DNA of 64,000 bases, taken from Nautilus pompilius. Its lineage: Eukaryota; Mollusca; Cephalopoda; Nautilida; Nautilidae. Of this stretch, positions 19,701 through 53,300 are shown piece after piece (position 1 is the stretch's first letter; every line of letters starts with the position of its first letter). The notes below the pieces were generated by a model. The model ran no database searches, had not been told where the DNA came from, and saw only the letters and a program-made list of their open reading frames with translations. The stretch is taken from assembly GCA_018389105.1 (NCBI GenBank), contig JACATO010002216.1:1-64000 (forward strand), written 5' to 3'. A program made the translations under genes and the position numbers.

Positions 19701-22700
19701 AACCCACAAGTGAATATCAAGCAGTACCTGTAAACAACAGAAGACAACAGATTTCTCAACCAACCAAGCAACCAGAGAGACCATATCCAGAGCAGCTTCA
19801 GATAAGTTTTTGTGTTGGCTACCCTATTTACTGTATTGCAGTGTTGGATTGAGTTTAGTTACCCGTGAGTAACATACATCTGGATTTAACTGTATTAACT
19901 GTCCGTGATAGGATTGTAATAATATCACTGCTGGGTATAGTATATTTTTTGGAAGTCATTAGTATTTGTTGTTTGTTGGTTTCACTCTCGCTGTTGCGTA
20001 ACATAGTTCCTCTAAGGTGTACGCACCAGCCACCCTTGAGGTGCAGTTACAGCAGCCATACCTAAAAGGCTGTTTGAATTCTGCTTCAATTACCTACATG
20101 CTGATGGTACAAAGATGGTTCTGACATCATGTGCTCTACAATAGAGACTAGTTACAAACACCAACTTTTCAAAAAAATTATTAAAAAGGTAAACAACATG
20201 AAAGTTTATTTACAGTTTTATGTTGCTTTTTAAAATTATTTAATTTGACCCTGACCTCCACCACCAGAGGCCATTAATCTGACCATGACTCCCACCACCA
20301 GACTAGGCCATTAATCTGACCCTGACCATCACCACCAGAGGCCATTAATCTGACCATGACCCAACCACCAGAGGCCATTAATCCAACCATGACTCCCACC
20401 ACCAGACTAGGCTATTAATCTGACCATGACCCAACCACCAAAGGCCATTAATCCAACCATGACTCCCACCACCAGACTAGGCTATTAATCTGACCCTGAC
20501 CACCACCACCACCAGAGGCCATTAATCTGACCATGACCCCAACCACCAGACTAGACTATTAATCTGACCGTGACCCTCACCACCAGAGGCTATTAATCTG
20601 ACCCCGACTCCCACCACCAGAAGCCATTAATCCGACCCTGACCTCCACCACAAATGGTGCCAGCTTATAGTTTAGTCCAATACACTGAACAGGAAGGAGT
20701 CTCCAAAAACACAAACATCAATAATAGCAACAAACAACCAACCACTTCCTCCTACTCTCACTTTATAAGAAACAAAAAACAGAAACCATAAGTGGTGGAT
20801 ACTTTACAGTTGGTAATTTTTGCACTGAAACTCAGTAGTAAATGGTAGTAACCAACACACGTTAAAAGCAAAGCGTGTGAACATTAGTGTTCCCTATGCA
20901 CATTTGCAGGCGCACCATCTTTCCTTCAAGATGGCTCAGCAGTCGAGCCTTGGCAAAGAGTGCTAGTTACAATCACTGGAAACGAGATTCAACAAGGCAA
21001 AGATTAAGAACTGTTTGGCTACAAAGAAAAAAAAAAATCTCTCCCGAGTTATTAATTAATTTGTGCCTAACTATGGCATTCTAAAAGTCCCCGCCAGTAC
21101 CAGAATGGCCTGCAGTCCAAAGTATGTTTGTTTTTTTAAGGTGGAGAAAATTTTTTCTTGCACAATTTGTCAAGAGTTTCTGACCTTGGCTCACCCCTAA
21201 TTAATTTCCGCTTCCCCACCCCTCTTTTCCAACCTTATTGCCTTGTTGATGGTTGAGTACAACACAGGTAAAACCTTAGAACGAGAAAGTGATTTGCTCC
21301 GGAAGACAACAATGACAAGCTTTTAATACCAGCGTGTTCAGGAGCAACAACTGTGACAGTGTCTCTGTGGTTTTAGCAATGCCTCGATAAACCAACTGAT
21401 GAGGTTTTTATTCGGTGGCGCGTGCAACTGGCATCGTGCTGAACTTTAATTAATGGCCAGAAATGATGTGGAAATAATAGCTTATAAGTACAAATCATGG
21501 AGTCAACCCAAACTGGAACCATGAATTGGTTCAAACTGTTTTTTTATCCCTTCTTTCTTTAAGCCAGAACTGAAGCAAAGTTGGGGGGATCCAAAAACGC
21601 AAAACCAGATCCATTAAAAACTACCACCAGCTGCTGCTTTTTGTTCTCCATGCTGACCTGGAAAAAGCCTGTGTCAGTTCCTTCCAATTCTATGGCTTCA
21701 CACACAATGGGGTAGATCTGGGAGAGGACAAAAGCTTGGTTTTGGTTGGCTGGCCAGCTATGGATATTTTCAACTATTGTGTGTGGGAGTGCCCTCTCCC
21801 TCCCTCCCAGGTTTGCACAGAAACAGAGATGAAAAGTCAGTGAACCCATGGTCTGGTGTAAACTCTAAACAATGGAAAAGATCCCAGATGGTAATGTGTG
21901 AGCATAAAAGCACAGGAGAAGAAAATCTGGAAAAGAGAGATACCATCAGCACATAAAAGAAGAGTTTTCTCCACTGCTGTAACAACCAGTTCACATCCAG
22001 GTGCAACACATTTGGTATTGAAAGAAATGAGAGAGAGAGAGACACACACACATCCCAGAATCTCAAAGAAATGCTTCTTGAAGTACTTTACTATGACATC
22101 AGTGTATCTAACATATAAATGATGATGATGATAAACAGGGAACTGAGGAAATCTTGGATATTGGAGAAGAAACAGTTGATGTTGTTAACAAAGGAGAATG
22201 GACACAAAGAAACAGTTTGGTAAGATGCATGGACTGAAAAAAGCAACACCCAACTGAATAAATCTGGCACTAGCAGTATACCATCCAACATCTCTTTCTT
22301 TCAGTTTACAATTATTATTCCAGACTGACAGTTGCACTATTTTACACTGCTGTCATCCATATGCCATTTTAAAGAGAAACAGATTCACATCTGGCTAGTG
22401 AATGCTAGAATGTCTCTAAAAAAAAAAAAGGAAAAAGAAATAGTATTCACACTTTTAGACATGATGGATAAACCTCATAATGGCAAAGATGCCCATATAG
22501 TGCTTTCTTCAAGGTATAATCCTGAGAGCTGTTCTGGATTGCAATGATGTTAATTTGTATTAGGTGTTTGCAGTAGTCATTTTTATTTTCTTGACAGTAC
22601 AAGCATTTGGAGCTGGATTTAAATCTGCAAACTGCTGTTTGACTGCCAAGTCTCCATCACTATTTTATGTAAATTAGGTGGCCCATACAACACAATAGCA

Positions 22701-25700
22701 TGTTGCTAAAAAATTCAGCAATTTAAAAAAAAAAAATTTGTGATATTTTCCTAGATTAGATGGTCAGTATGCAGAGCTCCAACTGAAAGTAGATGAAAAC
22801 AAGGAGCACATTCTTTAGAGAACCCAAATGTTTGTTAAATACAATATACTGGCTAAACGTCATCCTGTTTTTCTTTCACTCATTCTTGGAAATTCATGGA
22901 ACTGTAATTTGCTGTGTTTATCAAAGAGGTTTTTCTTGGATTCTTCATGCAAAACCAACTCTCTTCATTAGACATTTTCAACACAAGATGAACGTATTAC
23001 AGTAGAATAGAGATTTTACACAGGAACAGAAATGAAGTTGGCTTAAATCGACCAATTTAATTGGTTAAAACTATACACAGCAAACAAGCCATATAATGAG
23101 AGGTTCTACTGCAGAGGAGAGACAATCGGGAGAGTTGGAGCCTAAGCTACACATTTATCTTTTAACCATTTACAAATTCTTAGCTGGGTGGGAGTTACTT
23201 CCAGTAAAGCACAGTTTTGGACCATGATAATTTATATCAAATGTCCCCAAACCAGACTCCCCATCTATTATTATATTTACTAACAACATTATAAAAAAAT
23301 CTTTCACTTCATCAAGATCTAAAAACAGAATGACAACAACATTTGGGTATAATGCATCCTTGAGGGAAACAATGCAAAACATTTGAAAGGAAAGCTGTAC
23401 CTATAATCAGCCTAATTTTAAAAATAAGATAATAATAATAATAATAATAATAATAAAATTTTTTTTTTTTTTTTGTATTTAAAAAAAAAACAGATCAATA
23501 AAATAAATTTCCATTGTGAACATCAAGGCAAATTGCACATAAATAAATAAATACACTGAGGGTGAGAACAATGATGAAGTAACAAGTGCGTTACATGCAA
23601 ACATAAGATCACAGGGCACTTTTAATAAGTTTGGGATTGTTAATATGATCCTTTTTTTTTGATTGGCACAAAACTCGTTATCATAATGGCTTTGCCAATA
23701 ATCATTTCATAACAGTTAATGAGTGTCATGCTAATGTACATGTACACATCCAGCGTTTGGGAAGTGCACATAATGTCTGAATTTTATTAAATTTAGGGAT
23801 CCGTTTTAAATGTAAATGTAAGAATCAGTACACGATTTAGCTTATTTCTCTAAAAAAACAACAAAAGGAAAAATAAAACTATTCAGATGCTTTTCTCATA
23901 GAAATTATTATAAAAGGTAGTAATTTTTTTAATGTAATCACTGGAGAAACTGGTATAATTCAGGCAGTGGAGTAGTAAACCTAGGGGAGGACAGTTAGAA
24001 TGTGGCCTGCTATGGGTGAGGGCCCCAGTTCACATACTGCCTGGAGCTGGCTCAGTTTGATGTAACTCCCTGGCATCTTTGGTTGCTTCCCACATCTAAA
24101 AATAAAGGGTTCCAGTCAAGACTAATGTCACTGTTCAGTGCACTTGCACATCAAAGATGTCACCTCTCACATGTCAGAAGTCAATTCTATTATCATTTGA
24201 AGATTAAGAGCAAACCAGCAAGAGTTAGCTCCCTCGTTTTGAATTCAAAATGGTTAAGGAAAACAGTTTCTATCATGCAATTTAGATTAAATGTTTCCTC
24301 TGTTGCATGCATAGTACACAGTGACTAAAGAACTGGTGTTAACTAAAGACGCTATTGCGCTACAGCCACCACCAATAGGGAAGCAGAAACTGTTATATGT
24401 GAGATTATCAGAAAGGTAAATAAGCTTCCCTTACAAAAAAACTGCTCAAGTGGCCCAAATAGAAGTTAGAAGCTACATATCTGCTAAAGTTCCATACTTA
24501 TCACATATTACCAAGGCTAAACATACTAAAATATGCATCAAAAGTACCATGGATTAACATACTACATATAGCCATAAACATCTGCAGGGTTTTTTCTGGA
24601 GGGGTCACACCTTGTATGTATTGCTAGTCTCTTTCAGCCCCTTGACCTTTGGCCTTTGCCTGGTTGTGGTCAGACTCCTTATATCTTCCCAGCTTCTCCA
24701 GGCACCAATGAGCAGGAAATGCCATGGATACACTACCCCCCCCATAACTAAGAGCAGGAAAAGGGGGGGATAACACAGTAAAAAGTAGGAGTGGAATGGA
24801 ATTTAAAATTAACTCTTGTCTTGGCAGTAATTGAAGCAGCATTCCCACAATGCAATAGTACAAAAGCTGACTACCTGCAGAAACTAAACAACAGCAAAAC
24901 CCTTCCTTTCTGATTGTTAGCAGCCAATAATTAATGCAGCTGCTTGTCTATGTCGCAAACTCCTAACAGGTCAAGTAACTTTTAGCTGGCTTCTCTCATG
25001 TCAACTTCAATAGCAACACATTATGGAAACAACCCCCCCCTTAATTGTCAGTAGCAAATTTCGTTTCAGATTCTGTACAGCAGCTTTAAATTTCTACCAT
25101 CACTTAAACTCTATTTACTGAAATAGCCCCCATATAATGTGGCTACCACTAACATGAGAACTTTCCGAGTTTCGCTTATTATCTCATTAGTTATGCTGCC
25201 ACTTCCATATCTGATGCAGGCACCTGTAACACTTCTGAAAGAAAACTCGAAAGTGTCTGCATAACAACAACATTTGAACACATCATGGTTCATCCAGACA
25301 CTTGATAAATGTTCGTACACAGTGATAAATCACCTTAAGTGCATGTCTGCTGATGTAACAGCACAGGCATCGTACTTGTCCATGTTAATGACCGAGATTA
25401 TATCAGCTATGACCCACACATATAATTATGCATCCAAAATCTAAAATGTATCTATCAATCTCTCACATGGGTAATCTGAGAAGACTGTGTGCATGTGTAT
25501 CATGTAAACCAGAATAATTCCAGATCTACAGGTGTAAGCAGTATTTTCTCTGTAGTGACAGAAGCTCCAAATCAATATCCCACATCTGTCTAAAGCAGAA
25601 CTGGCATCACCAACCAGCTTCGTCCAAGCTTTTGAATTTGTTCAGGGACGATCATAAAGATTTGTGAACTTTTCTCGGTTGTCTGGATTAAATTAAACTT

Positions 25701-28700
25701 ACCGACGAGAAATGCACAAGTTTTTTTTTTTTTTAAATAAATAAACATCAAAGCTTCGTGGAAAATCAACCATACCTCGCTCCACGACATAACTGGCGGG
25801 TAAAAAGCCTTGCTGGCCGTCACATGACTCTCCCATCCACCAGTTCTCGCTGTCCTTGTACAAGATTAAGATTATATCCCCTTGGATAAGTGACAATTCG
25901 TCTGCCCTTTGAGCTTGGTAGTCATATAGTACTTGAGCCTAGGAAAAAGACCAGTAGTTTTTTCCTTTCTTACACAAAATTGTAAGGAATTCTTTTTATT
26001 TTTTTTAAATCTCAGGAAATTCTAAGACTGTTGGGCCAGACCTCAGTCAGAGTTAAAACAAGGTGCAGCACCTAACTTTAACATGCAGAAAGCTACATTA
26101 TTAAATGACAAATTCAGAACCAATTCAGCCTGTCTGTCTGGCAGAACACCATCATATCAAAGTCTAAGTGGAGATTTAATTGAAGAGTAATCATCAAACA
26201 CTACAACAAAGTCTCATTGTTTTTCCTTCATTCTCACATTTATCATGGCCAGGTAAGAACACTGTGATACATGCTAACAAAATTCATGGGATGGCATATA
26301 ATTAAAAAAAGACAGAGAATTTGAGGTGTTGTGTATAAAAGTATCAGAAGTATTAATTAGAATCAAATCTCTCAGTATACATCACATGAGCATGTTTCCA
26401 GTTGAAGATTCCACAGATCATGAAGATACCTTATGCACCAGTGCCCCAGTGGTTAGACTACTAGACTACAAGGGATGAAACTCCAAGTTTAGTTTGGTGC
26501 GTTTCCATAGCATGGTTTCTTCTCACTATTCAACACCAAGCAGCCAGCCAACACATAAATCCACCCCTCCCATCTAAAAATTGAAAACAAATCAAGCTTT
26601 TTCCCTGCTAAAGTTGGAAGTGCCAAGACCCACATGGTAACATAAGCAACACTTTCTAGTGGATAACAATGGCACCCCATTTCTCACCAGAGTTGTCTCC
26701 CACATAAAGCAGTTATCTCCATTGATAAGACTGGTGTAAGACACAACAACATACAAACACAAAACTGTGCCAATGATAACACAATGTATTAAATCATCAA
26801 AATGGCAAATAAGCAGTATTACATCATAATGCATAATTATGTGTATATGTATGTGTGTGTGAGCATGTGTATACAAAATGTCACAGAAAACAAGACAAAC
26901 ATGTTTGCACACCTATTATCAGTTGACAGACAAATAAATGCAAGACATGTGACACATGCATGAGAGCACCAGCTACTGCTATTTGCAATCAGCAGCCAGA
27001 GACCAAGATTATATGGTCAAGTGATGAATGAGTCATTAAAATTCAAAGATTTCTATTAACAAAACAGATATTCACACTAAAGGTCAAGTTTTTAAAGAAA
27101 CCTAAAACTGCCTACATTTGAAAATGTACTCAAAGATCCTGTTATTTAGAAAATGATTAGAAACTCCTACCCATCCAATCAACCTTTTAGAAATCTTTCA
27201 TAACCCTAATGTAAGGGAGTAAAATGCACAAACTAATCATGCAGTGTAATTTTTGGTTTTTTTAGGCAGATAACAGGAACTTTACTTTACAGCTTTAAAG
27301 GATCCTTAGTAAATTCAGAAACTGTTGATAGGATGATGGAGATTGTCTGAAATAGCCCTGTACTCTCTAGGTTGGTTAGTTAGTTAGTTCAGTAACTGTT
27401 GATAAGGTGACAGAGATTGTCTGAAATAGCCCTGTACTCTCTAGGTTGGTTAGTTAGTTAGTTCAGTAACTGTTGATAAGGTGACAGAGATTGTCTGAAA
27501 TAGCCCTGTACTCTCTAGGTTGGTTAGTTAGTTAGTTCAGTAACTGTTGATGAGGTGACAGACATTGTCTGAAATAGCCCTGTACTCTCTAGATTGGTTA
27601 GTTAGTTAGTTCAGTAACTGTTGATAGGATGATGGAGATTGTCTGAAATAGCCCTGTACTCTCTAGGTTGGTTAGTTAGTTAGTTCAGTAACTGTTGATA
27701 AGGTGACAGAGATTGTCTGAAATAGCCCTGTACTCTCTAGGTTGGTTAGTTAGTTAGTTCAGTAACTGTTAATAAGGTGACAGAGATTGTCTGAAATAGC
27801 CCTCTACTCTCTAGGTTGGTTAGTTAGTTAGTTCAGTAACTGTTGATGAGGTGACAGAGATTGTCTGAAATAGCCCTCTACTCTCTAGGTTGGTTAGTTA
27901 GTTAGTTCAGTAACTGTTGATAAGGTGACAGAGATTGTCTGAAATAGCCCTCTACTCTCTAGGTTGGTTAGTTAGTTAGTTCAGTAACTGTTGATAAGGT
28001 GACAGAGATTGTCTGAAATAGCCCTGTACTCTCTAGGTTGGTTAGTTAGTTAGTTCAGTAACTGTTAATAAGGTGACAGAGATTGTCTGAAATAGCCCTC
28101 TACTCTCTAGGTTGGTTAGTTAGTTAGTTCAGTAACTGTTGATAAGGTGACAGAGATTGTCTGAAATAGCCCTGTAGTCTCTAGGTTGGTTAGTTAGTTA
28201 GTTCAGTAACTGTTAATAAGGTGACAGAGATTGTCTGAAATAGCCCTGTACTCTCTAGGTTGGTTAGTTAGTTAGTTCAGTAACTGTTGATAAGATGACA
28301 GAGATTGTCTGAAATAGCCCTCTACTCTCTAGGTTGGTTAGTTAGTTAGTTCAGTAACTGTTGATAAGGTGACAGAGATTGTCTGAAATAGCCCTGTACT
28401 CTCTAGGTTGGTTAGTTAGTTAGTTCAGTAACTGTTGATAAGGTGACAGAGATTGTCTGAAATAGCCCTGTACTCTCTAGGTTGGTTAGTTAGTTAGTTC
28501 AGTAACTGTTGATGAGGTGACAGAGATTGTCTGAAATAGCCCTCTACTCTCTAGGTTGGTTAGTTAGTTAGTTCAGTAACTGTTGATAGGATGATGGAGA
28601 TTGTCTGAAATAGCCCTGTACTCTCTAGGTTGGTTAGTTAGTTAGTTCAGTAAATGTTGATGAGGTGACAGAGATTGTCTGAAATAGCCCTGTACTCTCT

Positions 28701-31700
28701 AGGTTGGTTAGTTAGTTAGTTCAGTAACTGTTAATAAGGTGACAGAGATTGTCTGAAATAGCCCTCTACTCTCTAGGTTGGTTAGTTAGTTAGTTCAGTA
28801 ACTGTTGATGAGGTGACAGAGATTGTCTGAAATAGCCCTCTACTCTCTAGGTTGGTTAGTTAGTTAGTTCAGTAACTGTTGATAAGGTGACAGAGATTGT
28901 CTGAAATAGCCCTCTACTCTCTAGGTTGGTTAGTTAGTTAGTTCAGTAACTGTTGATAAGGTGACAGAGATTGTCTGAAATAGCCCTGTACTCTCTAGGT
29001 TGGTTAGTTAGTTAGTTCAGTAACTGTTGATAAGGTGACAGAGATTGTCTGAAATAGCCCTGTACTCTCTAGGTTGGTTAGTTAGTTAGTTCAGTAACTG
29101 TTGATGAGGTGACAGAGATTGTCTGAAATAGCCCTCTACTCTCTAGGTTGGTTAGTTAGTTAGTTCAGTAACTGTTGATAGGATGATGGAGATTGTCTGA
29201 AATAGCCCTGTACTCTCTAGGTTGGTTAGTTAGTTAGTTCAGTAAATGTTGATGAGGTGACAGAGATTGTCTGAAATAGCCCTGTACTCTCTAGGTTGGT
29301 TAGTTAGTTAGTTCAGTAACTGTTGATAAGGTGACAGAGATTGTCTGAAATAGCCCTGTACTCTCTAGGTTGGTTAGTTAGTTAGTTCAGTAACTGTTGA
29401 TAAGGTGACAGAGATTGTCTGAAATAGCCCTCTACTCTCTAGGTTGGTTAGTTAGTTAGTTCAGTAACTGTTGATAGGATGATGGAGATTGTCTGAAATA
29501 GCCCTGTACTCTCTAGGTTGGTTAGTTAGTTAGTTCAGTAAATGTTGATGAGGTGACAGAGATTGTCTGAAATAGCCCTCTACTCTCTAGGTTGGTTAGT
29601 TAGTTAGTTCAGTAACTGTTGATGAGGTGACAGAGATTGTCTGAAATAGCCCTGTACTCTCTAGGTTGGTTAGTTAGTTAGTTCAGTAACTGTTGATAAG
29701 GTGACAGAGATTGTCTGAAATAGCCCTCTACTCTCTAGGTTGGTTAGTTAGTTAGTTCAGTAACTGTTGATAGGATGATGGAGATTGTCTGAAATAGCCC
29801 TGTACTCTCTAGGTTGGTTAGTTAGTTAGTTCAGTAAATGTTGATGAGGTGACAGAGATTGTCTGAAATAGCCCTCTACTCTCTAGGTTGGTTAGTTAGT
29901 TAGTTCAGTAACTGTTGATGAGGTGACAGAGATTGTCTGAAATAGCCCTGTACTCTCTAGGTTGGTTAGTTAGTTAGTTCAGTAACTGTTGATAAGGTGA
30001 CAGAGATTGTCTGAAATAGCCCTGTACTCTCTAGGTTGGTTAGTTAGTTAGTTCAGTAACTGTTGATAGGATGATGGAGATTGTCTGAAATAGCCCTGTA
30101 CTCTCTAGGTTGGTTAGTTAGTTAGTTCAGTAAATGTTGATGAGGTGACAGAGATTGTCTGAAATAGCCCTCTACTCTCTAGGTTGGTTAGTTAGTTAGT
30201 TCAGTAACTGTTGATGAGGTGACAGAGATTGTCTGAAATAGCCCTGTACTCTCTAGGTTGGTTAGTTAGTTAGTTCAGTAACTGTTGATAAGGTGACAGA
30301 GATTGTCTGAAATAGCCCTCTACTCTCTAGGTTGGTTAGTTAGTTAGTTCAGTAACTGTTGATAGGATGATGGAGATTGTCTGAAATAGCCCTGTACTCT
30401 CTAGGTTGGTTAGTTAGTTAGTTCAGTAAATGTTGATGAGGTGACAGAGATTGTCTGAAATAGCCCTCTACTCTCTAGGTTGGTTAGTTAGTTAGTTCAG
30501 TAACTGTTGATGAGGTGACAGAGATTGTCTGAAATAGCCCTGTACTCTCTAGGTTGGTTAGTTAGTTAGTTCAGTAACTGTTGATAAGGTGACAGAGATT
30601 GTCTGAAATAGCCCTGTACTCTCTAGGTTGGTTAGTTAGTTAGTTCAGTAAATGTTGATGAGGTGACAGAGATTGTCTGAAATAGCCCTGTACTCTCTAG
30701 GTTGGTTAGTTAGTTAGTTCAGTAACTGTTAATAAGGTGACAGAGATTGTCTGAAATAGCCCTGTACTCTCTAGGTTGGTTAGTTAGTTAGTTCAGTAAC
30801 TGTTGATGAGGTGACAGAGATTGTCTGAAATAGCCCTCTACTCTCTAGGTTGGTTAGTTAGTTAGTTCAGTAACTGTTGATAAGGTGACAGAGATTGTCT
30901 GAAATAGCCCTCTACTCTCTAGGTTGGTTAGTTAGTTAGTTCAGTAACTGTTGATAAGGTGACAGAGATTGTCTGAAATAGCCCTGTACTCTCTAGGTTG
31001 GTTAGTTAGTTAGTTCAGTAACTGTTGATAAGGTGACAGAGATTGTCTGAAATAGCCCTGTACTCTCTAGGTTGGTTAGTTAGTTAGTTCAGTAACTGTT
31101 GATGAGGTGACAGAGATTGTCTGAAATAGCCCTCTACTCTCTAGGTTGGTTAGTTAGTTAGTTCAGTAACTGTTGATGAGGTGACAGAGATTGTCTGAAA
31201 TAGCCCTGTACTCTCTAGGTTGGTTAGTTAGTTAGTTCAGTAAATGTTGATGAGGTGACAGAGATTGTCTGAAATAGCCCTGTACTCTCTAGGTTGGTTA
31301 GTTAGTTAGTTCAGTAACTGTTGATAAGGTGACAGAGATTGTCTGAAATAGCCCTGTACTCTCTAGGTTGGTTAGTTAGTTAGTTCAGTAACTGTTGATA
31401 AGGTGACAGAGATTGTCTGAAATAGCCCTCTACTCTCTAGGTTGGTTAGTTAGTTAGTTCAGTAACTGTTGATAGGATGATGGAGATTGTCTGAAATAGC
31501 CCTGTACTCTCTAGGTTGGTTAGTTAGTTAGTTCAGTAAATGTTGATGAGGTGACAGAGATTGTCTGAAATAGCCCTCTACTCTCTAGGTTGGTTAGTTA
31601 GTTAGTTCAGTAACTGTTGATGAGGTGACAGAGATTGTCTGAAATAGCCCTGTACTCTCTAGGTTGGTTAGTTAGTTAGTTCAGTAACTGTTGATAAGGT

Positions 31701-34700
31701 GACAGAGATTGTCTGAAATAGCCCTCTACTCTCTAGGTTGGTTAGTTAGTTAGTTCAGTAACTGTTGATAGGATGATGGAGATTGTCTGAAATAGCCCTG
31801 TACTCTCTAGGTTGGTTAGTTAGTTAGTTCAGTAAATGTTGATGAGGTGACAGAGATTGTCTGAAATAGCCCTCTACTCTCTAGGTTGGTTAGTTAGTTA
31901 GTTCAGTAACTGTTGATGAGGTGACAGAGATTGTCTGAAATAGCCCTGTACTCTCTAGGTTGGTTAGTTAGTTAGTTCAGTAACTGTTGATAAGGTGACA
32001 GAGATTGTCTGAAATAGCCCTGTACTCTCTAGGTTGGTTAGTTAGTTAGTTCAGTAACTGTTGATAAGGTGACAGAGATTGTCTGAAATAGCCCTCTACT
32101 CTCTAGGTTGGTTAGTTAGTTAGTTCAGTAACTGTTAATAAGGTGACAGAGATTGTCTGAAATAGCCCTCTACTCTCTAGGTTGGTTAGTTAGTTAGTTC
32201 AGTAACTGTTGATGAGGTGACAGAGATTGTCTGAAATAGCCCTCTACTCTCTAGGTTGGTTAGTTAGTTAGTTCAGTAACTGTTGATGAGGTGACAGAGA
32301 TTGTCTGAAATAGCCCTGTACTCTCTAGGTTGGTTAGTTAGTTAGTTCAGTAAATGTTGATGAGGTGACAGAGATTGTCTGAAATAGCCCTCTACTCTCT
32401 AGGTTGGTTAGTTAGTTAGTTCAGTAACTGTTGATGAGGTGACAGAGATTGTCTGAAATAGCCCTGTACTCTCTAGGTTGGTTAGTTAGTTAGTTCAGTA
32501 ACTGTTGATAAGGTGACAGAGATTGTCTGAAATAGCCCTGTACTCTCTGGGTTGGTTAGTTAGTTAGTTCAGTAACTGTTGATAGGATGATGGAGATTGT
32601 CTGAAATAGCCCTGTACTCTCTAGGTTGGTTAGTTAGTTAGTTCAGTAAATGTTGATGAGGTGACAGAGATTGTCTGAAATAGCCCTGTACTCTCTAGGT
32701 TGGTTAGTTAGTTAGTTCAGTAACTGTTGATAAGGTGACAGAGATTGTCTGAAATAGCCCTCTACTCTCTAGGTTGGTTAGTTAGTTAGTTCAGTAACTG
32801 TTGATAGGATGATGGAGATTGTCTGAAATAGCCCTGTACTCTCTAGGTTGGTTAGTTAGTTAGTTCAGTAACTGTTGATAAGGTGACAGAGATTGTCTGA
32901 AATAGCCCTCTACTCTCTAGGTTGGTTAGTTAGTTAGTTCAGTAACTGTTGATAGGATGATGGAGATTGTCTGAAATAGCCCTGTACTCTCTAGGTTGGT
33001 TAGTTAGTTAGTTCAGTAAATGTTGATGAGGTGACAGAGATTGTCTGAAATAGCCCTGTACTCTCTAGGTTGGTTAGTTAGTTAGTTCAGTAACTGTTGA
33101 TAAGGTGACAGAGATTGTCTGAAATAGCCCTCTACTCTCTAGGTTGGTTAGTTAGTTAGTTCAGTAACTGTTGATAGGATGATGGAGATTGTCTGAAATA
33201 GCCCTGTACTCTCTAGGTTGGTTAGTTAGTTAGTTCAGTAAATGTTGATGAGGTGACAGAGATTGTCTGAAATAGCCCTCTACTCTCTAGGTTGGTTAGT
33301 TAGTTAGTTCAGTAACTGTTGATGAGGTGACAGAGATTGTCTGAAATAGCCCTGTACTCTCTAGGTTGGTTAGTTAGTTAGTTCAGTAACTGTTGATAAG
33401 GTGACAGAGATTGTCTGAAATAGCCCTGTACTCTCTAGGTTGGTTAGTTAGTTAGTTCAGTAACTGTTGATAAGGTGACAGAGATTGTCTGAAATAGCCC
33501 TCTACTCTCTAGGTTGGTTAGTTAGTTAGTTCAGTAACTGTTGATAGGATGATGGAGATTGTCTGAAATAGCCCTGTACTCTCTAGGTTGGTTAGTTAGT
33601 TAGTTCAGTAAATGTTGATGAGGTGACAGAGATTGTCTGAAATAGCCCTCTACTCTCTAGGTTGGTTAGTTAGTTAGTTCAGTAACTGTTGATGAGGTGA
33701 CAGAGATTGTCTGAAATAGCCCTGTACTCTCTAGGTTGGTTAGTTAGTTAGTTCAGTAACTGTTGATAAGGTGACAGAGATTGTCTGAAATAGCCCTCTA
33801 CTCTCTAGGTTGGTTAGTTAGTTAGTTCAGTAACTGTTGATAGGATGATGGAGATTGTCTGAAATAGCCCTGTACTCTCTAGGTTGGTTAGTTAGTTAGT
33901 TCAGTAAATGTTGATGAGGTGACAGAGATTGTCTGAAATAGCCCTCTACTCTCTAGGTTGGTTAGTTAGTTAGTTCAGTAACTGTTGATGAGGTGACAGA
34001 GATTGTCTGAAATAGCCCTGTACTCTCTAGGTTGGTTAGTTAGTTAGTTCAGTAACTGTTGATAAGGTGACAGAGATTGTCTGAAATAGCCCTCTACTCT
34101 CTAGGTTGGTTAGTTAGTTAGTTCAGTAACTGTTAATAAGGTGACAGAGATTGTCTGAAATAGCCCTCTACTCTCTAGGTTGGTTAGTTAGTTAGTTCAG
34201 TAACTGTTGATAAGGTGACAGAGATTGTCTGAAATAGCCCTCTACTCTCTAGGTTGGTTAGTTAGTTAGTTCAGTAACTGTTGATGAGGTGACAGAGATT
34301 GTCTGAAATAGCCCTGTACTCTCTAGGTTGGTTAGTTAGTTAGTTCAGTAAATGTTGATGAGGTGACAGAGATTGTCTGAAATAGCCCTCTACTCTCTAG
34401 GTTGGTTAGTTAGTTAGTTCAGTAACTGTTGATGAGGTGACAGAGATTGTCTGAAATAGCCCTGTACTCTCTAGGTTGGTTAGTTAGTTAGTTCAGTAAC
34501 TGTTGATAAGGTGACAGAGATTGTCTGAAATAGCCCTGTACTCTCTGGGTTGGTTAGTTAGTTAGTTCAGTAACTGTTGATAGGATGATGGAGATTGTCT
34601 GAAATAGCCCTGTACTCTCTAGGTTGGTTAGTTAGTTAGTTCAGTAAATGTTGATGAGGTGACAGAGATTGTCTGAAATAGCCCTGTACTCTCTAGGTTG

Positions 34701-37700
34701 GTTAGTTAGTTAGTTCAGTAACTGTTGATAAGGTGACAGAGATTGTCTGAAATAGCCCTCTACTCTCTAGGTTGGTTAGTTAGTTAGTTCAGTAACTGTT
34801 GATAGGATGATGGAGATTGTCTGAAATAGCCCTGTACTCTCTAGGTTGGTTAGTTAGTTAGTTCAGTAACTGTTGATGAGGTGACAGAGATTGTCTGAAA
34901 TAGCCCTGTACTCTCTAGGTTGGTTAGTTAGTTAGTTCAGTAACTGTTGATAAGGTGACAGAGATTGTCTGAAATAGCCCTGTACTCTCTAGGTTGGTTA
35001 GTTAGTTAGTTCAGTAACTGTTGATAAGGTGACAGAGATTGTCTGAAATAGCCCTGTACTCTCTAGGTTGGTTGGTTAGTTAGTTCAGTAACTGTTGATA
35101 AGGTGACGGAGATTGTCTGAAATAGCCCTGTACTCTCTAGGTTGGTTAGTTAGTTAGTTCAGTAACTGTTGATAAGGTGACAGAGATTGTCTGAAATAGC
35201 CCTGTACTCTCTAGGTTGGTTAGTTAGTTAGTTCAGTAACTGTTGATAAGGTGACAGAGATTGTCTGAAATAGCCCTGTACTCTCTAGGTTGGTTAGTTA
35301 GTTAGTTCAGTAACTGTTGATAAGGTGACAGAGATTGTCTGAAATAGCCCTGTACTCTCTAGGTTGGTTAGTTAGTTAGTTCAGTAACTGTTGATAAGGT
35401 GACAGAGATTGTCTGAAATAGCCCTGTACTCTCTAGGTTGGTTAGTTAGTTAGTTCAGTAACTGTTAATAAGGTGACAGAGATTGTCTGAAATAGCCCTC
35501 TACTCTCTAGGTTGGTTAGTTAGTTAGTTCAGTAACTGTTGATAAGGTGACAGAGATTGTCTGAAATAGCCCTGTACTCTCTAGGTTGGTTAGTTAGTTA
35601 GTTCAGTAAATGTTGATGAGGTGACAGAGATTGTCTGAAATAGCCCTCTACTCTCTAGGTTGGTTAGTTAGTTAGTTCAGTAACTGTTGATGAGGTGACA
35701 GAGATTGTCTGAAATAGCCCTGTACTCTCTAGGTTGGTTAGTTAGTTAGTTCAGTAAATGTTGATGAGGTGACAGAGATTGTCTGAAATAGCCCTCTACT
35801 CTCTAGGTTGGTTAGTTAGTTAGTTCAGTAACTGTTGATGAGGTGACAGAGATTGTCTGAAATAGCCCTGTACTCTCTAGGTTGGTTAGTTAGTTAGTTC
35901 AGTAACTGTTGATAAGGTGACAGAGATTGTCTGAAATAGCCCTGTACTCTCTAGGTTGGTTAGTTAGTTAGTTCAGTAAATGTTGATAAGGTGACAGAGA
36001 TTGTCTGAAATAGCCCTCTACTCTCTAGGTTGGTTAGTTAGTTAGTTCAGTAACTGTTGATAAGGTGACAGAGATTGTCTGAAATAGCCCTCTACTCTCT
36101 AGGTTGGTTAGTTAGTTAGTTCAGTAACTGTTGATAGGATGATGGAGATTGTCTGAAATAGCCCTGTACTCTCTAGGTTGGTTAGTTAGTTAGTTCAGTA
36201 AATGTTGATGAGGTGACAGAGATTGTCTGAAATAGCCCTGTACTCTCTAGGTTGGTTAGTTAGTTAGTTCAGTAACTGTTGATAAGGTGACAGAGATTGT
36301 CTGAAATAGCCCTCTACTCTCTAGGTTGGTTAGTTAGTTAGTTCAGTAACTGTTGATAAGGTGACAGAGATTGTCTGAAATAGCCCTGTACTCTCTAGGT
36401 TGGTTAGTTAGTTAGTTCAGTAACTGTTGATGAGGTGACAGAGATTGTCTGAAATAGCCCTGTACTCTCTAGGTTGGTTAGTTAGTTAGTTCAGTAACTG
36501 TTGATGAGGTGACAGAGATTGTCTGAAATAGCCCTCTACTCTCTAGGTTGGTTAGTTAGTTAGTTCAGTAACTGTTGATAAGGTGACAGAGATTGTCTGA
36601 AATAGCCCTCTACTCTCTAGGTTGGTTAGTTAGTTAGTTCAGTAACTGTTGATAGGATGATGGAGATTGTCTGAAATAGCCCTGTACTCTCTAGGTTGGT
36701 TAGTTAGTTAGTTCAGTAACTGTTGATAAGGTGACAGAGATTGTCTGAAATAGCCCTGTACTCTCTAGGTTGGTTAGTTAGTTAGTTCAGTAACTGTTGA
36801 TAAGGTGACAGAGATTGTCTGAAATAGCCCTCTACTCTCTAGGTTGGTTAGTTAGTTAGTTCAGTAACTGTTGATAGGATGATGGAGATTGTCTGAAATA
36901 GCCCTGTACTCTCTAGGTTGGTTAGTTAGTTAGTTCAGTAACTGTTGATGAGGTGACAGAGATTGTCTGAAATAGCCCTGTACTCTCTAGGTTGGTTAGT
37001 TAGTTAGTTCAGTAACTGTTGATAAGGTGACAGAGATTGTCTGAAATAGCCCTGTACTCTCTAGGTTGGTTAGTTAGTTAGTTCAGTAACTGTTGATAAG
37101 GTGACAGAGATTGTCTGAAATAGCCCTGTACTCTCTAGGTTGGTTGGTTAGTTAGTTCAGTAACTGTTGATAAGGTGACGGAGATTGTCTGAAATAGCCC
37201 TGTACTCTCTAGGTTGGTTAGTTAGTTAGTTCAGTAACTGTTGATAAGGTGACAGAGATTGTCTGAAATAGCCCTGTACTCTCTAGGTTGGTTAGTTAGT
37301 TAGTTCAGTAACTGTTGATAAGGTGACAGAGATTGTCTGAAATAGCCCTGTACTCTCTAGGTTGGTTAGTTAGTTAGTTCAGTAACTGTTGATAAGGTGA
37401 CAGAGATTGTCTGAAATAGCCCTGTACTCTCTAGGTTGGTTAGTTAGTTAGTTCAGTAACTGTTGATAAGGTGACAGAGATTGTCTGAAATAGCCCTGTA
37501 CTCTCTAGGTTGGTTAGTTAGTTAGTTCAGTAACTGTTGATAAGGTGACAGAGATTGTCTGAAATAGCCCTGTACTCTCTAGGTTGGTTAGTTAGTTAGT
37601 TCAGTAACTGTTGATAAGGTGACAGAGATTGTCTGAAATAGCCCTGTACTCTCTAGGTTGGTTAGTTAGTTAGTTCAGTAACTGTTGATAAGGTGACAGA

Positions 37701-40700
37701 GATTGTCTGAAATAGCCCTGTACTCTCTAGGTTGGTTAGTTAGTTAGTTCAGTAACTGTTGATAAGGTGACAGAGATTGTCTGACATAGCCCTGTACTCT
37801 CTAGGTTGGTTAGTTAGTTAGTTCAGTAACTGTTGATAAGGTGACAGAGATTGTCTGAAATAGCCCTGTACTCTCTAGGTTGGTTAGTTAGTTAGTTCAG
37901 TAACTGTTGATAAGGTGACAGAGATTGTCTGAAATAGCCCTGTACTCTCTAGGTTGGTTAGTTAGTTAGTTCAGTAACTGTTGATAAGGTGACAGAGATT
38001 GTCTGAAATAGCCCTGTACTCTCTAGGTTGGTTAGTTAGTTAGTTCAGTAACTGTTGATAAGGTGACAGAGATTGTCTGAAATAGCCCTGTACTCTCTAG
38101 GTTGGTTAGTTAGTTAGTTCAGTAACTGTTGATAAGGTGACAGAGATTGTCTGAAATAGCCCTGTACTCTCTAGGTTGGTTAGTTAGTTAGTTCAGTAAC
38201 TGTTGATAAGGTGACAGAGATTGTCTGAAATAGCCCTGTACTCTCTAGGTTGGTTAGTTAGTTAGTTCAGTAACTGTTGATAAGGTGACAGAGATTGTCT
38301 GAAATAGCCCTGTACTCTCTAGGTTGGTTGGTTAGTTAGTTCAGTAACTGTTGATAAGGTGACGGAGATTGTCTGAAATAGCCCTGTACTCTCTAGGTTG
38401 GTTAGTTAGTTAGTTCAGTAACTGTTGATAAGGTGACAGAGATTGTCTGAAATAGCCCTGTACTCTCTAGGTTGGTTAGTTAGTTAGTTCAGTAACTGTT
38501 GATAAGGTGACAGAGATTGTCTGAAATAGCCCTGTACTCTCTAGGTTGGTTAGTTAGTTAGTTCAGTAACTGTTGATAAGGTGACAGAGATTGTCTGAAA
38601 TAGCCCTGTACTCTCTAGGTTGGTTAGTTAGTTAGTTCAGTAACTGTTGATAAGGTGACAGAGATTGTCTGAAATAGCCCTGTACTCTCTAGGTTGGTTA
38701 GTTAGTTAGTTCAGTAACTGTTGATAAGGTGACAGAGATTGTCTGAAATAGCCCTGTACTCTCTAGGTTGGTTAGTTAGTTAGTTCAGTAACTGTTGATA
38801 AGGTGACAGAGATTGTCTGAAATAGCCCTGTACTCTCTAGGTTGGTTAGTTAGTTAGTTCAGTAACTGTTGATAAGGTGACAGAGATTGTCTGAAATAGC
38901 CCTGTACTCTCTAGGTTGGTTAGTTAGTTAGTTCAGTAACTGTTGATAAGGTGACAGAGATTGTCTGAAATAGCCCTGTACTCTCTAGGTTGGTTAGTTA
39001 GTTAGTTCAGTAACTGCTGATAAGGTGAAGAGGAAATGTCTTAGTAAACCCTTTGTCATCTGTAAATAACTTCTGTTTTATTTTGCTTTAAATCAAACAA
39101 AAAAATTAAAATTTACTTTTGGTATTTTTAAAATTAGATAGCTAATTAAATAATCTAGAAGGCTTTATAAATGCACACCTGTGAACTATTGATGAATTTA
39201 ACCTCTGTATAAAATAACAGGGGAAACTGTTAGCAAGAGAAAGGAAAGAATGTTCAAAGAACAAATAAAGCAAGCCTGATTTCTAGACAGAGTTTCCTGA
39301 CCATTTGATCACATATAATGTTCGAAACATTTTGAGTTCTCTTTCTTAAAAATCAAAATATTTGAACAAGTAAATGCTAATGGGATCCAGGTCTTTTTAA
39401 GCCAGGGTTTCTCTGGAGAGAGAGAGAGAGAGAGAGATGACCAATGGTGAACATCTCTAACTACAAGCCGGAGATGATTGTTCAGTACATTATGCCAGAG
39501 ACAAGGAAAACTTTAAGCTCTGCTGCTGTGCAAGATAAAAAAAATCATTAAACTGCTGTGATGGTAATCAATATCAGTGAAGTGTAACAGGGCCACTCTT
39601 TGTCCGTAAATCTTGGCTGGATGCTTTCATAAATGATAAATATGCTATGATTATTTGTGGCTGTCATTGAGTGAATACATTTTATGTTTTGAAGTAATCT
39701 ATTTTGTATGCAGAGTAAGTACCATATGTGCAGGATGACAACCGGTCTACCATCAATATGGCTATTGATTTGTCTAAAGACTTGCAAACTGGTGTCTTAC
39801 CTGCCCATTCTTGTTTAATCCAAAATACTTATCCTAATGGCCCGAAGAATGGAATCAATGTCTCATTGTGTTTTTGCATAATATCGCCTTTTTTCTTCTT
39901 CTTCTTCTTCTTTTTTTTAATCAAAAGATAACTTTACTTCGGTCTAAAAAGTGCAGAATAGGAGAGAAGCTACAATGGCAGAATTAATGCAGTTATCCAA
40001 GAGAGAAGATAATCCCCGTTCTTTGACACTCAATGATATGATGGTAATTTCTGGATTATCACAGTTCTTCCTGTCCAAGTAGGAGGGGGGAGGGAAAAAA
40101 ACGAAAACTTTATCAAATAATCTTAAACAAGAAATATTATAGAAAGCAGGGGGACCAATGACATTACTAGTAGTAACTGGCCTAGCAAACAACAGCCTAT
40201 GTTTCGTTTCAGAAAAATCCCCTCCCCCCCTGCTGCCATCATTAGAAAATCCACTTCTCCCTGAAGATGATGATGTTAATTCTGCAGAGTATTTTCTTTC
40301 TTTTTTAAACTATACAAGTGGTGTAGAGGCTAATCTTAAACCCATGGTCTTAAGCTGCTGCTGCTGCTGGTGTTCTGGTCCACTGCATCACTAGGGCATC
40401 AGTGTTTTAAATCAAATTTCACTTGTTTACTAAACTAAATATTTAAATTAAAAAAGAAAGAAAAACTGATTTCATCGAAATGCTTTTAACTACCATATTT
40501 CTGCCTTCTAATGAGAAAAGGGTTTATGCTAAAATGTGGGCTTCTATATGGGGGAAAAACAACAACAACATCATACAAAACGTCTGTCATTCGCATCTCT
40601 CAAATTGTTCATCTATTTGGCGTGGCATCAGAGGAAGACAGAAGGAGCACAACTAAGAATTACGCACTAGTTTTTCTGCTTTCTTAGAAAATCAATACCA

Positions 40701-41177
40701 AAAAATTTGATTCTACTTAGCAGAATGGCCACCAATTGCTCCAAAAAATTCATCTTATTTTATTTTTATAACTGCAAAGTAAACAAACTGGCCTCATTTT
40801 TCTCCTCACAGAAGGTAAAAACTTTGTTCCAAGGCAGCAAAATGCTGCAGAAGATGTGCAGAATGGGGCTAAACAAACATATCCTTTTTTCTTTCTACTG
40901 CTTTCTTATTATTCTGGTATATTGGAATAATTTTTTTAAATCAACTTACGTGTTTGAAATCAGACTTTGCTGATCTTGCTGCAGGTTGCTCAAAGGTGAA
41001 GTGAGGTTTTCCCTGTTCCTGTAATGTGAAAGTGAATAAAAGTAGTTATTGGATGATGCAAAGTATAAAGTTTAAAAAAAAAAAAAAACAAAAACTGCTT
41101 AAAATGACAAAGCCACAGCTAAAAGTCAGGTACAAACTGAGAGAGAGAGAGAGAGAGAGATGATGGAGGAGAGAGAT

Positions 41178-41215
<38 letters not shown>

Positions 41216-41354
41216 GGAGGAGAGAGATGGGAGAGAGAAGAGAGAGAGAGCGAGAGAGAGAGAGAGAGTGATGGCGGAGAGAGATGGGAGAGAGAGAGAG
41301 ATGATGGAGGAGAGAGATGGGAGAGCGAGAGAGAGGAGAGATGATGGAGGAGAG

Positions 41355-41389
<35 letters not shown>

Positions 41390-44300
41390 GGAGGAGAGAG
41401 ATGGGAGAGAGCGAGAGATGATGGAGGAGAGAGATGGGAGAGGAGAGAGAGATGCTGGAGGAGAGAGCGGGAGAGAGAGAGAGAGAGAGAGAGAGAGGCT
41501 GATGGAGGGGGGAGAGAGAGAGAGAGAGAGAGATGCTGGAGGAGAGAGATGGGAGAGCGAGAGAGATTGATGGAGGGAGCGAGAGGGAGAGAGAGATGAG
41601 AGAGAGAGAGAGAGATGATGGAGGGGAGAGAGAGAGAGCGAGAGAGAGAGAGAGCTACTCACCATATTTAAAGTAATATGAGGTTGTCTTCCAGTGAGAG
41701 ATGGACTTGAAATGATGCTGCTCCTGCACTGACCAACTGACAAAAAGCAGCAGAAAAAGAGAAGTGCAACAGTCAATGAATAATGAAACATTTGGCAAAA
41801 AGTTTACATTTCCTTGTTTATAAATTGTGCAAGCCATGAGGAATATCACTTGTCTTTAATTCACATTTCTTCCTCAAAGTGGCCGAAATTTCATTAACTG
41901 CTATAAGGAAAAAAAATTTGCAGCACTGTTCTGGGGTAAAGAAGAGAAGTCTTCTTGATAACAGGGGCTGCATAAGACTTCATCCCCTGAAACCACACGC
42001 ACACAGAATTTGGAAAGACGACTTGCAAACTATCCCATTTCCTTGTTGTTCTGGCCAAATTTTCATGTATAACAACTAGTTGGCAACTGCAGATTTTCAG
42101 AAAAAACTCAAAAAAGAAAGTCAGAAAGGTTTTGCATCCCCTCCAACTCCCTCAATCCCAACTGCCCCCCATTACTAAATGCCATTTCCTATCAAAGCAT
42201 TTTCAAAACTGCATAAATCACATTTATCAAATGCAGAAGATCCCAGATCATGTTCTTAACAGGCAAACGTTTAGGATCCACTTTTAAGGAAAAAACAAAA
42301 ACAAGTCTTTCTTTGGTTAAATGTGGAATATTAGATTTCTTTAAAAGTCCCAATTAACCAATTTCTACCTTTCTTTTCCTTTTACGCACCATATGCATTC
42401 CTGTTTTCAAATAGCTCTTCGCTCTGCAAAATAGTTGCCGTGTGACAGGTGTAATATACTTGTACCTATAGGAAATGTTCTTTCAGTAAATCTGTCTGGC
42501 TTGCTCTACATCTGACCCTGCATAAACTCACTGTGCCTGTTCAGTCTGATAAATAAGGCCCAGTATGAAAAATCATAAACGAGAGGGAACATTTCTAATG
42601 AAAATTTTGATGACTTCGACAGAGAAAAATGAGGCCTAAAGTATTTTTGGTGTGTATGTGCATAATAGTAAAATAACAAAAACATGTGCACATGTTTGTT
42701 GTATTTTTAAAAATGGGATGCTATGGTTTAGACCAATTTATTACCTGAATGGCAGTGTTCTATACAATAGACCAATACAACAACTAACTTATAATCCAGT
42801 GATACACACAAAACTAACATGCAATTTTAGTTGTGATAGTGTGTTACACACAAGACCAATAAGACATTTGACTTAGAGTGGTACACGAGACCAACATAAC
42901 GTCAGACTTATAACCCAGTGCGTTGACACGAGACCAATATAACATCAGACTTATAACCCAGTATGTACGAGTCAGTAGGCTATGTGCTAGACTAATCCTC
43001 TACCCATCTGTGTGTAACATATAAACAAGGTTGTTGTTTTTTTTTAACTGTGAAAGAATCAAATAACCGAATAACTACCAGACACCATAATCAAATTCTG
43101 CAAAAGTAGTGGTGTGTGCAGTATTTTCTTTGAAAATCTTCATTACATTCCTGGCATTCTAAATTAAAAAAAAAAAAAAACGGTCTCTTATGGTTAGTTA
43201 CCTGGACTGAAGCCAGGTCTCCATCCGTCGCTTTTCTTCAGATATTTGCTCTGAGCCATAAACTGCTGCTGCTTTATCATCAGATCGAAATCCTTCGAAG
43301 CATGCGGGGAGAATACAGATGGCATAATCCCCTGCTACAAGATTGAAGAAAAAAAGATGACAAAAAAGTTTTTTTTTTTTTTTTTATAGAACTCAAATTA
43401 CACTGATGTTGGTTATTTTTCAAACTCATTTAACAGGATGTACAACATTTGGCACTGTAGCCACCTGGATCTGCTCGATAGTGTGGAAAAACAATTTTTA
43501 CAAAACATACAGGTGGTAAACACGCATGAACTCCAGATGGAAGTGGAACTTTTCACATCTTGTACAGCAGTGATGGCAATATTGTGCTTATACATTTGCA
43601 GGACAAGCATCAATATGACATCACATTGCTATATCCCCAGTTATTCCACCTGGAGATTTGACAATAAAATTGTTCCAAGGAGCAGCAATATGCAGACTCA
43701 GTTTACATTGATAAACAAATAAAAACTTTCTTTTCTATAACATACTGATCAATGAACTTTCAAGTAAATGTACCCTGGCTGGCTACTTTATTAGGACCCA
43801 CGCCCAAGAACAAGTTGGGCCATCTTTTGCCTGAATAACAGCCATGATGCTAAGTGGTATAAGGAAGGTGTCTTGAGAGATAGTTACCCATTCAGTCATT
43901 AATACTGTACACAATGTAAGGAGTGAGACGAGCAGAGGATTGTGATGGCAAATGAGTCTTTTAAGTTCATTCCAGAGATGCTCAATTGGCTTAAGATCTG
44001 GGTATTGTGTTGGCCATGGGAGATGTCTTAAATCTCCATCTTGCTTCTTAAACCATGAATGCACCACAGGGGCAAGATGGATAGAAGCAGTGTCATCTTG
44101 GAAATATCATTTCCCATCAGAGTATGCAATAAGCATCGCTGGATGCACTTGACTGAAAATGATGCTGAGGTAAGCTTTAGCATTCATTCTGCCTTTCAAA
44201 GAGACCAAGAAGCCCAGGTCATGGCAACAAAACATTTCCCAAGCCATGACTCTACCACCAGAAAGGTCAAGTGATTCATGTGGCTTTCTCCAAATCTGCC

Positions 44301-50300: not shown

Positions 50301-53300
50301 CCGGAAGAAAATCCACTCAGGAAATGTGTGGGGGGTTTATGGTGCAGACAGGTTCACCTAAAGGGTGATCTCATCACAAGCTTTTTTAACAAAACAGAAA
50401 AGAAACTACTTAATCATTGCGTAGTTCTAACCATGAAGGAATCCTTACAATTAAGCTTAATTTCAGTCACTTTACCCACTAAAAAAATTACAATGACAGC
50501 AGAAAATCCAAATATTTTTTTTTTCAATAAAAATCTATAAAAGCATTTATAATCTTCCTCTGTGAACATAAATGTTTACAACTACAGACGTGTTTCGATT
50601 AGTTTGTGTTGCATCAATGGTTACCGCTAACAACCACTGACATTCCTACACCTTCTGGAGCCTGACATTTCCATCTTTAGACTAGAATCCTTCTGCTTAG
50701 CTGAGGTCAAGGAACCAGCAGAAACCCATGCTGATAGAATTGGCGCAGAAGAGCAAGAGTAGACCATGCTGAGGTTGGTTCGTAAAAATCCAGATCAAAC
50801 TCAGGGCCCTCTACCATGGCAGGCTGCACACTTTGCCAACCATCTCCAAGCATTTATGTGGAACCCATTCTTCTTGATATACAAATTTTAAAATTGTCAA
50901 TACAAACGGAGCACTGAAGCAAAAATGGTGGCCAACGAAGACGCAGTATTGAGCCCCAGTGAAAATGCTCAAGGCCAGCCAGGTTCGTTTATTAATTTGT
51001 CCGAAATAAATCAGCAACAAAATTTTTAAAAAGGCAAACTCAGGTCTAAATAGTAAGAAAGAGTAATAAGCATATGAATATTTTAATGGACATTAGTGTG
51101 GATATTTTCTAAAAAAGAAAAATTACAATAGAACAGCATTCAAACAGGAGGAGGATTTTGCTTCCGTAGGTTTTTTCTGAACCTAAGGTCGCTCCAAGAT
51201 TTGGCCAACAACTCTCCGCACCATTAAGGGGGAAACTTCCGGGTTGAAAAATAAACTAGGGTCAGTCTGAAAATTTCCGATTTTGGTTTTCGTCGACATC
51301 ATAAATTTAGTTCTCTTATTTTTAACAGAAACAGAACATCATTTATAAGTTTGTTATGCCCCCCCAGTTTTTAATGTTTTTCTCTCCACCCACCACCCCC
51401 CCAATCTCCGGCTTGTGAGTTAATATAAACAGTTTTAGCTAAGCATCAGATGAGAGAAATGAGTGACCAAAGAGGAGTCTTCCAGATGGATGAGCAAGGA
51501 AGAGCTCTAACTGTGTGGACTGTGAAGATTTTGCATTGTTTGAAGCCTGCCCACCCCCCCTTTTTTTTCCTATTCATTACACGAAACTCATGTCCAAAAA
51601 TAAGGAAGCCCTTTCCTAAATCTGTCGTAAACTGTGTGGACCCTCTGGGTTCTTATCACATTCTGCAATTTTGTGACCTTTGACTCAATAAACCCACACT
51701 AACTAAAGCCACATGCATGTGTACTTTCACATCCGTATTTAATAAAAAGTCATAAATTTATATTTACATTTAATTAAAATGTTTCAAATCTGTAGTCTTA
51801 GTCTATACCCCAAAAATACATCCACGTATGCATGCAATGAAACCATATCCACATTTACATTACAATCTAAGCACCCGTACCCACGTACAGCGCTGTACTC
51901 ACAGAGACTGTGTTTAGCTTCCGCATGATTTTCTCATACCGGGCACCTTGCTGCACTTGAAACTCATCCTGGGTTAACACTTCTGGTGGCCCTGTGCTCT
52001 CTGATGATTCTCTGCATAAAACAAGAAAAATGCATAATTATGCTTAAACTGAAAATAAAGTGATAATTACAGAACGCTTAGCAACATATTTCCCACTACA
52101 TTATAGCTTTTTTTTTCTTCATCTGAAAGGCACAGCCATTGGCCATTTATAATTAGCTATCAATAGTCGGAAATTGAAAGTTACCTCCCCCTCTGAGATA
52201 TTGCAAAATCGAGACTTGTTGTAAACAGGGGTCTAGAAACAGTGCCCATAAATTACACCCAATTGGGGAAAATTTCAGACACATTTATTGCCTTTCTATC
52301 TCTGTAGTGTGGCCGATCCAGGATTTTCGGAATGGGCGGGTGTGGCATAGGCCATACCGAGCGCCGAATTCCAAATGACTACACCAGAAGTGAGCAAACT
52401 AGGGCCCGCGGCTTCATTTGAAAAAGGACAAAAAATGGGATGTTTACACCTTGTTCATCTACATCGCAAGGTATTTGTCAGATTGATGCCGTCCATTCAG
52501 AAATTTGTAAGCCTACTTTTGCAGTTTTCCGGTTTCATATAAAACAGGGAAATTCTTATGAAGTTGGCCCGAATTTTAGAAATACAGAAGTCAAAACAAG
52601 ACTCTGGGTTTCCACAGTTTTATGAGGAATGTGGCCGAGCAGCGATACAACAGGTGCTCTCATGCGGCCTCCATAGACAATGTTCTCCCACCCCTGGACC
52701 ACTAAACACAGAACATGCAATTCATTTCAGACAAGGAATCATCACTGATGTTATACACTGTCAGGTGTCATGTATCAATGCACCAATTTTGTAATATTTA
52801 TTCCGTCAATGGGTTGTTGAAAAGCATGCGCCTTGAGTACCTGCGCACATACATGTCTATGATCCTGTCATAGTCCAGGTGAATGTCCCTGTGGACTAAA
52901 AGTAGAAGCAAGGCATTGAATCACTCCTCTGTCATTGTTGAACAATAGGATGTCTTGATAAACCGCAACGCGGAATTGGTGCGTTCAACACTAGCAGAGG
53001 TGGTGGGGTATGTTAGAACGATCCTTAGTATGGTAGTGATGTTACTATAGAACGTTTCAATACTTTTGTCTGATATTATTCTGAGGGTATCTGCGAGAGT
53101 TGAAGGGAGATCTTTCCCAGGTCGACCTGACCAATTTCATCGCCATAAGCGGAGTTCCTGATGAAAATTTCCTGGAGAGGGGTGATCATCTTGATAATAA
53201 GACAATACTTTGGTTTCTGTTTCCTTATCGAGTTTTGTTAGATATGCCAGGGATTCTCTTTATGCAGGCCCAGGCACGGATCTAGAGGTGTGGCCGTGAC

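Follow-up and report, generated by a model that had tools for sequence, protein, structure and literature searches.

How could an intronic array of 158 copies of a 74-bp unit come to hold not a single insertion or deletion? This question is raised by a 64-kb stretch of Nautilus DNA (the window, taken at its full length throughout), for which an earlier note, made from the letters alone, had offered recent expansion by unequal exchange, insertion of a rolling-circle product, or selection on the spacing of the units. Here, we describe the setting and composition of the array, the order of its units and the number of mutation events that they represent, and we weigh these explanations against each other.

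Genomic setting of the array

The array lies within a predicted intron of a gene on the minus strand (Table 1), which judging from its protein matches is likely AHI1. The predicted exon that follows the array in the direction of the gene matches the Pfam family SH3_1 (E 1.9e-16), and among the best 60 of its 65 PDB matches Jouberin (4esr, 56.9 bits) is the best with one whole SH3 stretch. Three GRB2 entries score above Jouberin among these best 60 of 65 matches (63.1-63.2 bits), and in the one GRB2 alignment available the score comes from two domains (29.4 and 31.6 bits). Elsewhere in the window, weak matches to WD40 near 60.8 kb (E 0.0034) and to a beta-propeller near 60.3 kb (E 0.0047) both fall below the Pfam cut-off, and a piece near 59.1 kb has no Pfam match. 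The homology of the SH3 exon and the predicted splice sites thus support the setting inside an AHI1 intron that had been proposed earlier; the share of the intron taken up by the array, previously put at about 84%, is corrected to 78.1% (11,727 of 15,011 bp, for the intron as predicted).

Table 1. Coordinates of the predicted exons, the intron and the features of the 74-bp array in the window.
Feature	Position	Strand	Remarks
Predicted SH3 exon, 3' of the array in gene sense	25776..25938	-	Best one-domain PDB match Jouberin (AHI1)
Predicted intron around the array, 15,011 bp	25939..40949	-	78.1% taken up by the array
Exon of 69 bases predicted upstream of the intron	40950..41018	-	AG acceptor, GTAAGT donor, frame open into the SH3 exon
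Predicted 74-base exon	41736-41663	-	Acceptor and donor, frame open toward the SH3 exon
74-bp tandem array	27306..39032	.	158 complete units and a partial one; no indels
Left edge unit	27306..27379	.	7 substitutions from the consensus
Units 19-37	28638..30043	.	Recur as units 46-64 at an offset of 27 units; 1406 bp with 6 differences (99.57%)
Units 46-64	30636..32041	.	Second copy of the 19-unit run
Units 101-110	34706..35445	.	Matched by units 129-138 at an offset of 28 units; 0 differences in 740 bp
Units 129-138	36778..37517	.	Second copy of the 10-unit run
Units 141-158	37666..38997	.	Near-uniform end; on average 0.33 pairwise differences per 74
Partial terminal unit	38998..39032	.	

Composition and limits of the array

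Tandem Repeats Finder (TRF) reported, for the 11.7 kb of the array, a period of 74 with 158.5 copies, 96% matches, 0% indels and a score of 21837, and an array of such a score is not a chance match. When the array was cut every 74 bases from its first position, all 158 complete units could be compared with the consensus without any gap. Both results bear out the description of a 158-unit satellite without net indels, and the second excludes compensating indels inside the units, a finding by which the earlier note's claim would have been refuted. Substitutions are also few, namely, 0 to 4 from the consensus in 157 units, 47 of the 158 being identical to it, and 7 in the left edge unit, the most divergent of the array, four of which (columns 26, 28, 32 and 33) are common as a set to 20 internal units. 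Altogether, 18 distinct unit types occur among the 158 complete units. Variation affects 17 of the 74 columns, and where the earlier note had seen substitutions tolerated at a handful of fixed sites, they represent a small number of haplotypes common to several units, not hits that arose independently.

At the opposite end, likeness to the unit is lost at around 39029. Collinear similarity past this point was not significant (62, 106 and 157 of 1000 shuffles were as good, at three lengths), nor were decayed units in the left flank (169 and 342 of 1000 shuffles, at two lengths) or free alignments of the flanks to the unit (193 of 500 shuffles on the right and 166 of 500 on the left). Within the array, only 3 CpG were observed, compared with 410 expected from its base composition, because the consensus unit contains none.

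No significant copy of the unit was found elsewhere in the window, where the best match was one of 12 exact bases at 25118-25129 (E 0.43). An exact core of 24 bases had no match among viral, bacterial and archaeal contigs, a result of little weight, as the Nautilus genome may be outside this set; a core of 19 bases was absent from the paper texts searched, and the array was not reported in the titles returned by literature searches on the topic. Several candidate roles were also rejected. First, no known RNA among 4227 Rfam families matched the window at its gathering score. Second, no stop-to-stop frame of at least 40 amino acids overlaps the complete units. Third, a two-unit stretch (29004-29151) folds less stably than the mean of its shuffles, whether taken as sense RNA (z 1.19, with 178 of 200 shuffles equally or more stable) or as plus-strand DNA (z 1.41, 184 of 200).

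Order of the units and growth of the array

The 18 unit types recur in an order that shuffling does not reproduce. Over 79 offsets and 2000 shuffles, unit-type identity peaks at offsets of 4 (z 6.5), 27 (z 6.1) and 8 units (z 4.6), reaching 0.31, 0.31 and 0.27, respectively, against about 0.15 expected. At 28 units, enrichment over the whole array is weak (0.21; z 2.2), yet one run at this offset is still well beyond shuffles. Scoring of ordered run pairs, for which 300 shuffles reached at most 14.7, gave the following results. First, the best pair, units 19-37 and 46-64, scored 31.2. Second, units 101-110 and 129-138 scored 20.2. Third, two further pairs without any difference, units 28-36 and 83-91 (666 bp) and units 132-141 and 148-157 (740 bp), scored 18.6 and 17.6, respectively. 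Since ordered runs of unit types recur beyond shuffles, the copies are not independent of each other.

Variation inside the units follows the same direction. For nine chosen columns, all four allele combinations were found in 6 of the 36 column pairs, the rarest combination being carried by a single unit in three of these six. Such pairs fit exchange inside units, although recurrent mutation may have given some of them, which is a point against this reading. Furthermore, mean pairwise differences in the seven other 20-unit blocks are of 1.71-3.13 per unit, the first five blocks showing no steady trend, and since units 141-158 are nearly uniform the right end of the array was probably the last to expand. 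The recurring runs and mixed alleles point to in-register exchange together with block duplication and, with the near-uniform right end, they lend support to the earlier suggestion of expansion via unequal exchange.

Arrays of around 11.7 kb are hard to assemble, and an error in copy number or unit order has to be considered before these patterns are read as history. The length would be most uncertain in the last 18 units, which are almost uniform, and the exact duplicated runs could be assembly duplications. However, 18 types in a long-range, non-random order do not resemble a collapsed consensus, and the window contains no N, so that we regard misassembly as unlikely.

A different origin, also put forward in the earlier note, is that rolling-circle copying produced a tandem circle that was inserted once at this site. 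This would yield an indel-free array at once, and tandem circles appear as a proposed route for satellites in a review (PMC8122249). Nevertheless, a single-unit circle inserted once would leave copies that are all alike, unlike the 18 types in ordered runs and the divergent unit at the edge that are seen here. Also against it, no other part of the window has a significant copy (best E 0.43). Having found no positive evidence for such an insertion, we consider it distinctly improbable, even if it could have been the first step of the array.

The explanation that we favour, with a probability of roughly 85%, is that of a large intronic minisatellite, or small satellite array, which homology-directed events built up from a unit of 74 bp. 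The routes would be unequal sister-chromatid exchange, gene conversion or break-induced copying between copies, which the same review describes for satellites (PMC8122249). Because near-identical units would pair in register, whole units would be gained or lost while the period remains stable and does not drift, and rare new mutations would either spread in blocks or disappear. Length invariance would then be a by-product of homogenised, probably young DNA. We infer both recombination as the route of growth and the recency of the expansion. The array is in need of no function; as a repeat of a common kind it is unusually clean, with no sign of a new mechanism. Its 18 unit types provide a readable record of how it grew, and the locus could serve as a good long-read marker.

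Absence of insertions and deletions

A count of n copies without an indel does not amount to n independent tests, as copies duplicated in blocks carry few mutation events. The minimum spanning tree that links the 18 unit types has 22 substitution steps and, because only about 22 steps link them, few indels are expected. Assuming indel to substitution ratios of 0.05-0.125, the Poisson probability of zero indels is 0.33-0.06; at an assumed ratio of 0.2 it drops to 0.01, which counts against the neutral explanation. We also simulated neutral gain and loss of blocks under eight settings of 300 runs each (2400 arrays), in which block sizes, growth bias and indel ratios are assumptions. Segregating substitutions numbered 12-22 in 720 of the 2400 arrays, and 166 of these 720 were free of indels (10-43% depending on the setting). 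Two of the settings gave on average as many unit types as the 18 observed, and in these the indel-free shares were 28% and 15%.

These estimates bear directly on the idea that spacing is under selection, for instance through nucleosome phasing or helical register. A length of 74 bp is close to 7 helical turns, and two units, or 148 bp, are close to the nucleosome core. In agreement with this idea, the AA/TT/TA power at 10.57 bp exceeds the mean of the shuffles (25.4 versus 15.6), but not significantly so (P 0.197, 5000 shuffles), and the harmonic at 8.2 bp is stronger (32.7) and that at 5.3 bp about equal (25.9). Since 166 of the 720 matched neutral runs are indel-free and helical phasing is not significant, selection on spacing is unneeded: zero indels, unsurprising with some 22 substitution steps, are already covered by the neutral expectation. 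The proposal is left unsupported, and we see hardly any likelihood in it.

The earlier note had also contrasted the 74-bp array with a CT-rich minisatellite at 4.4-5.8 kb. Length does vary in the latter (4468-5768), whose 17 spacings are of 65 (nine), 63 (five), 69 (two) and 95 bases (one), but the contrast is weak because a dinucleotide run of 13, 15 or 17 bases (7, 8 and 2 units, respectively) explains much of it. The remainder of the unit measures 41 (12 units), 43 (four) or 71 bases (one), and one 30-base gain and a 2-base variant fall outside the CT run. This variation would be partly as expected of slippage in the CT run, a kind of sequence that the 74-bp unit does not have.

ACUAAC motifs on the sense strand

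The sense strand of the array contains 471 ACUAAC sites (40.2 per kb), including 155 clusters of three overlapping sites, compared with 0.42 ACUAAY per kb in the rest of the window; the other strand of the array has none. Only 0.28% of 5000 shuffled units reached three sites, but the motif was noticed after the fact and stems from one TTAG run. ACUAAC is the type of site recognized by SF1 and QKI, whose binding to the array is putative, and these two proteins are competitors at ACUAA branch sites in mammalian cells, according to one study (PMC13004596).

On the basis of the motif, the transcribed array might form a platform beside the SH3 exon to which SF1 or QKI, a STAR protein, would bind, so that splicing of this exon is altered or QKI is sequestered. 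In that case the sites would be kept in step by homogenisation, and the locus would represent a satellite that affects the splicing of a gene through a protein-binding motif. We find this very unlikely. The full branch motif UACUAAC does not occur in the array, which counts against such a platform, and the stretch that carries the sites shows no sign of selection: variable columns are 3 of 16, versus 14 of 58 elsewhere (P 0.75), and 1 of 16 versus 13 of 58 without the edge unit (P 0.28). As for splice-site-like strings, the array has 157 copies of the acceptor-like TTTCAG, and the donor strings GTAAG and GTGAG are absent from it.

Comparison with known repeat systems

Minisatellite units are roughly 10-100 bp long, and the array belongs with minisatellites or VNTRs both by unit size and array length (74 bp x 158.5, 11.7 kb) and by an internal variant pattern shaped by block duplication. 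Its likeness to vertebrate euchromatic minisatellites and VNTRs extends to its tandem arrangement inside the intron of a gene, to a variant pattern that fits block duplication, and to a length inside the 0.5-30 kb that the review gives for mean array length (PMC8122249). In contrast, its unit is of 74 bp versus about 15 bp in that review (PMC8122249), and it combines a high copy number with no indels, as seen in one assembly only.

With higher-order repeats of the alpha satellite type, the array shares multi-unit runs that are 99.6-100% alike, versus 97-100% in higher-order blocks, whereas its unit types are mostly a few bases apart, versus about 30% (both values as in the review, PMC8122249). 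Moreover, the offsets that stand out are patchy, unlike the one regular multi-unit period of a higher-order repeat array.

Other repeats and remnants in the window

A minisatellite at 20240-20651 was reported by TRF with periods of 34, 37 and 70, 78-85% matches and 5-8% indels, and at 42754-42962 diverged repeats of 34-38 bases form three families that overlap, each copy being 61-95% identical to the reference copy of its family. Two matches to transposases are found on the minus strand. The first, at 43783-44106, is to Pfam DDE_3 (E 5.9e-06), with 26.6 bits where the cut-off is 28.6, and is likely a remnant of a Tc1/mariner-like element, the Tc1 label being one that we presume for this match. 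The second, at 52924-53136, scores above the cut-off for Pfam Dimer_Tnp_hAT (E 5.2e-05) and is a remnant of the dimerisation region of a hAT transposase. Last, a 516-bp GA-rich array (41139-41654), CT-rich in the sense of the gene, starts 8 bases into the neighbouring predicted intron (41662-41019) and fills about 80% of it, and is possibly a binding tract for polypyrimidine-binding proteins.
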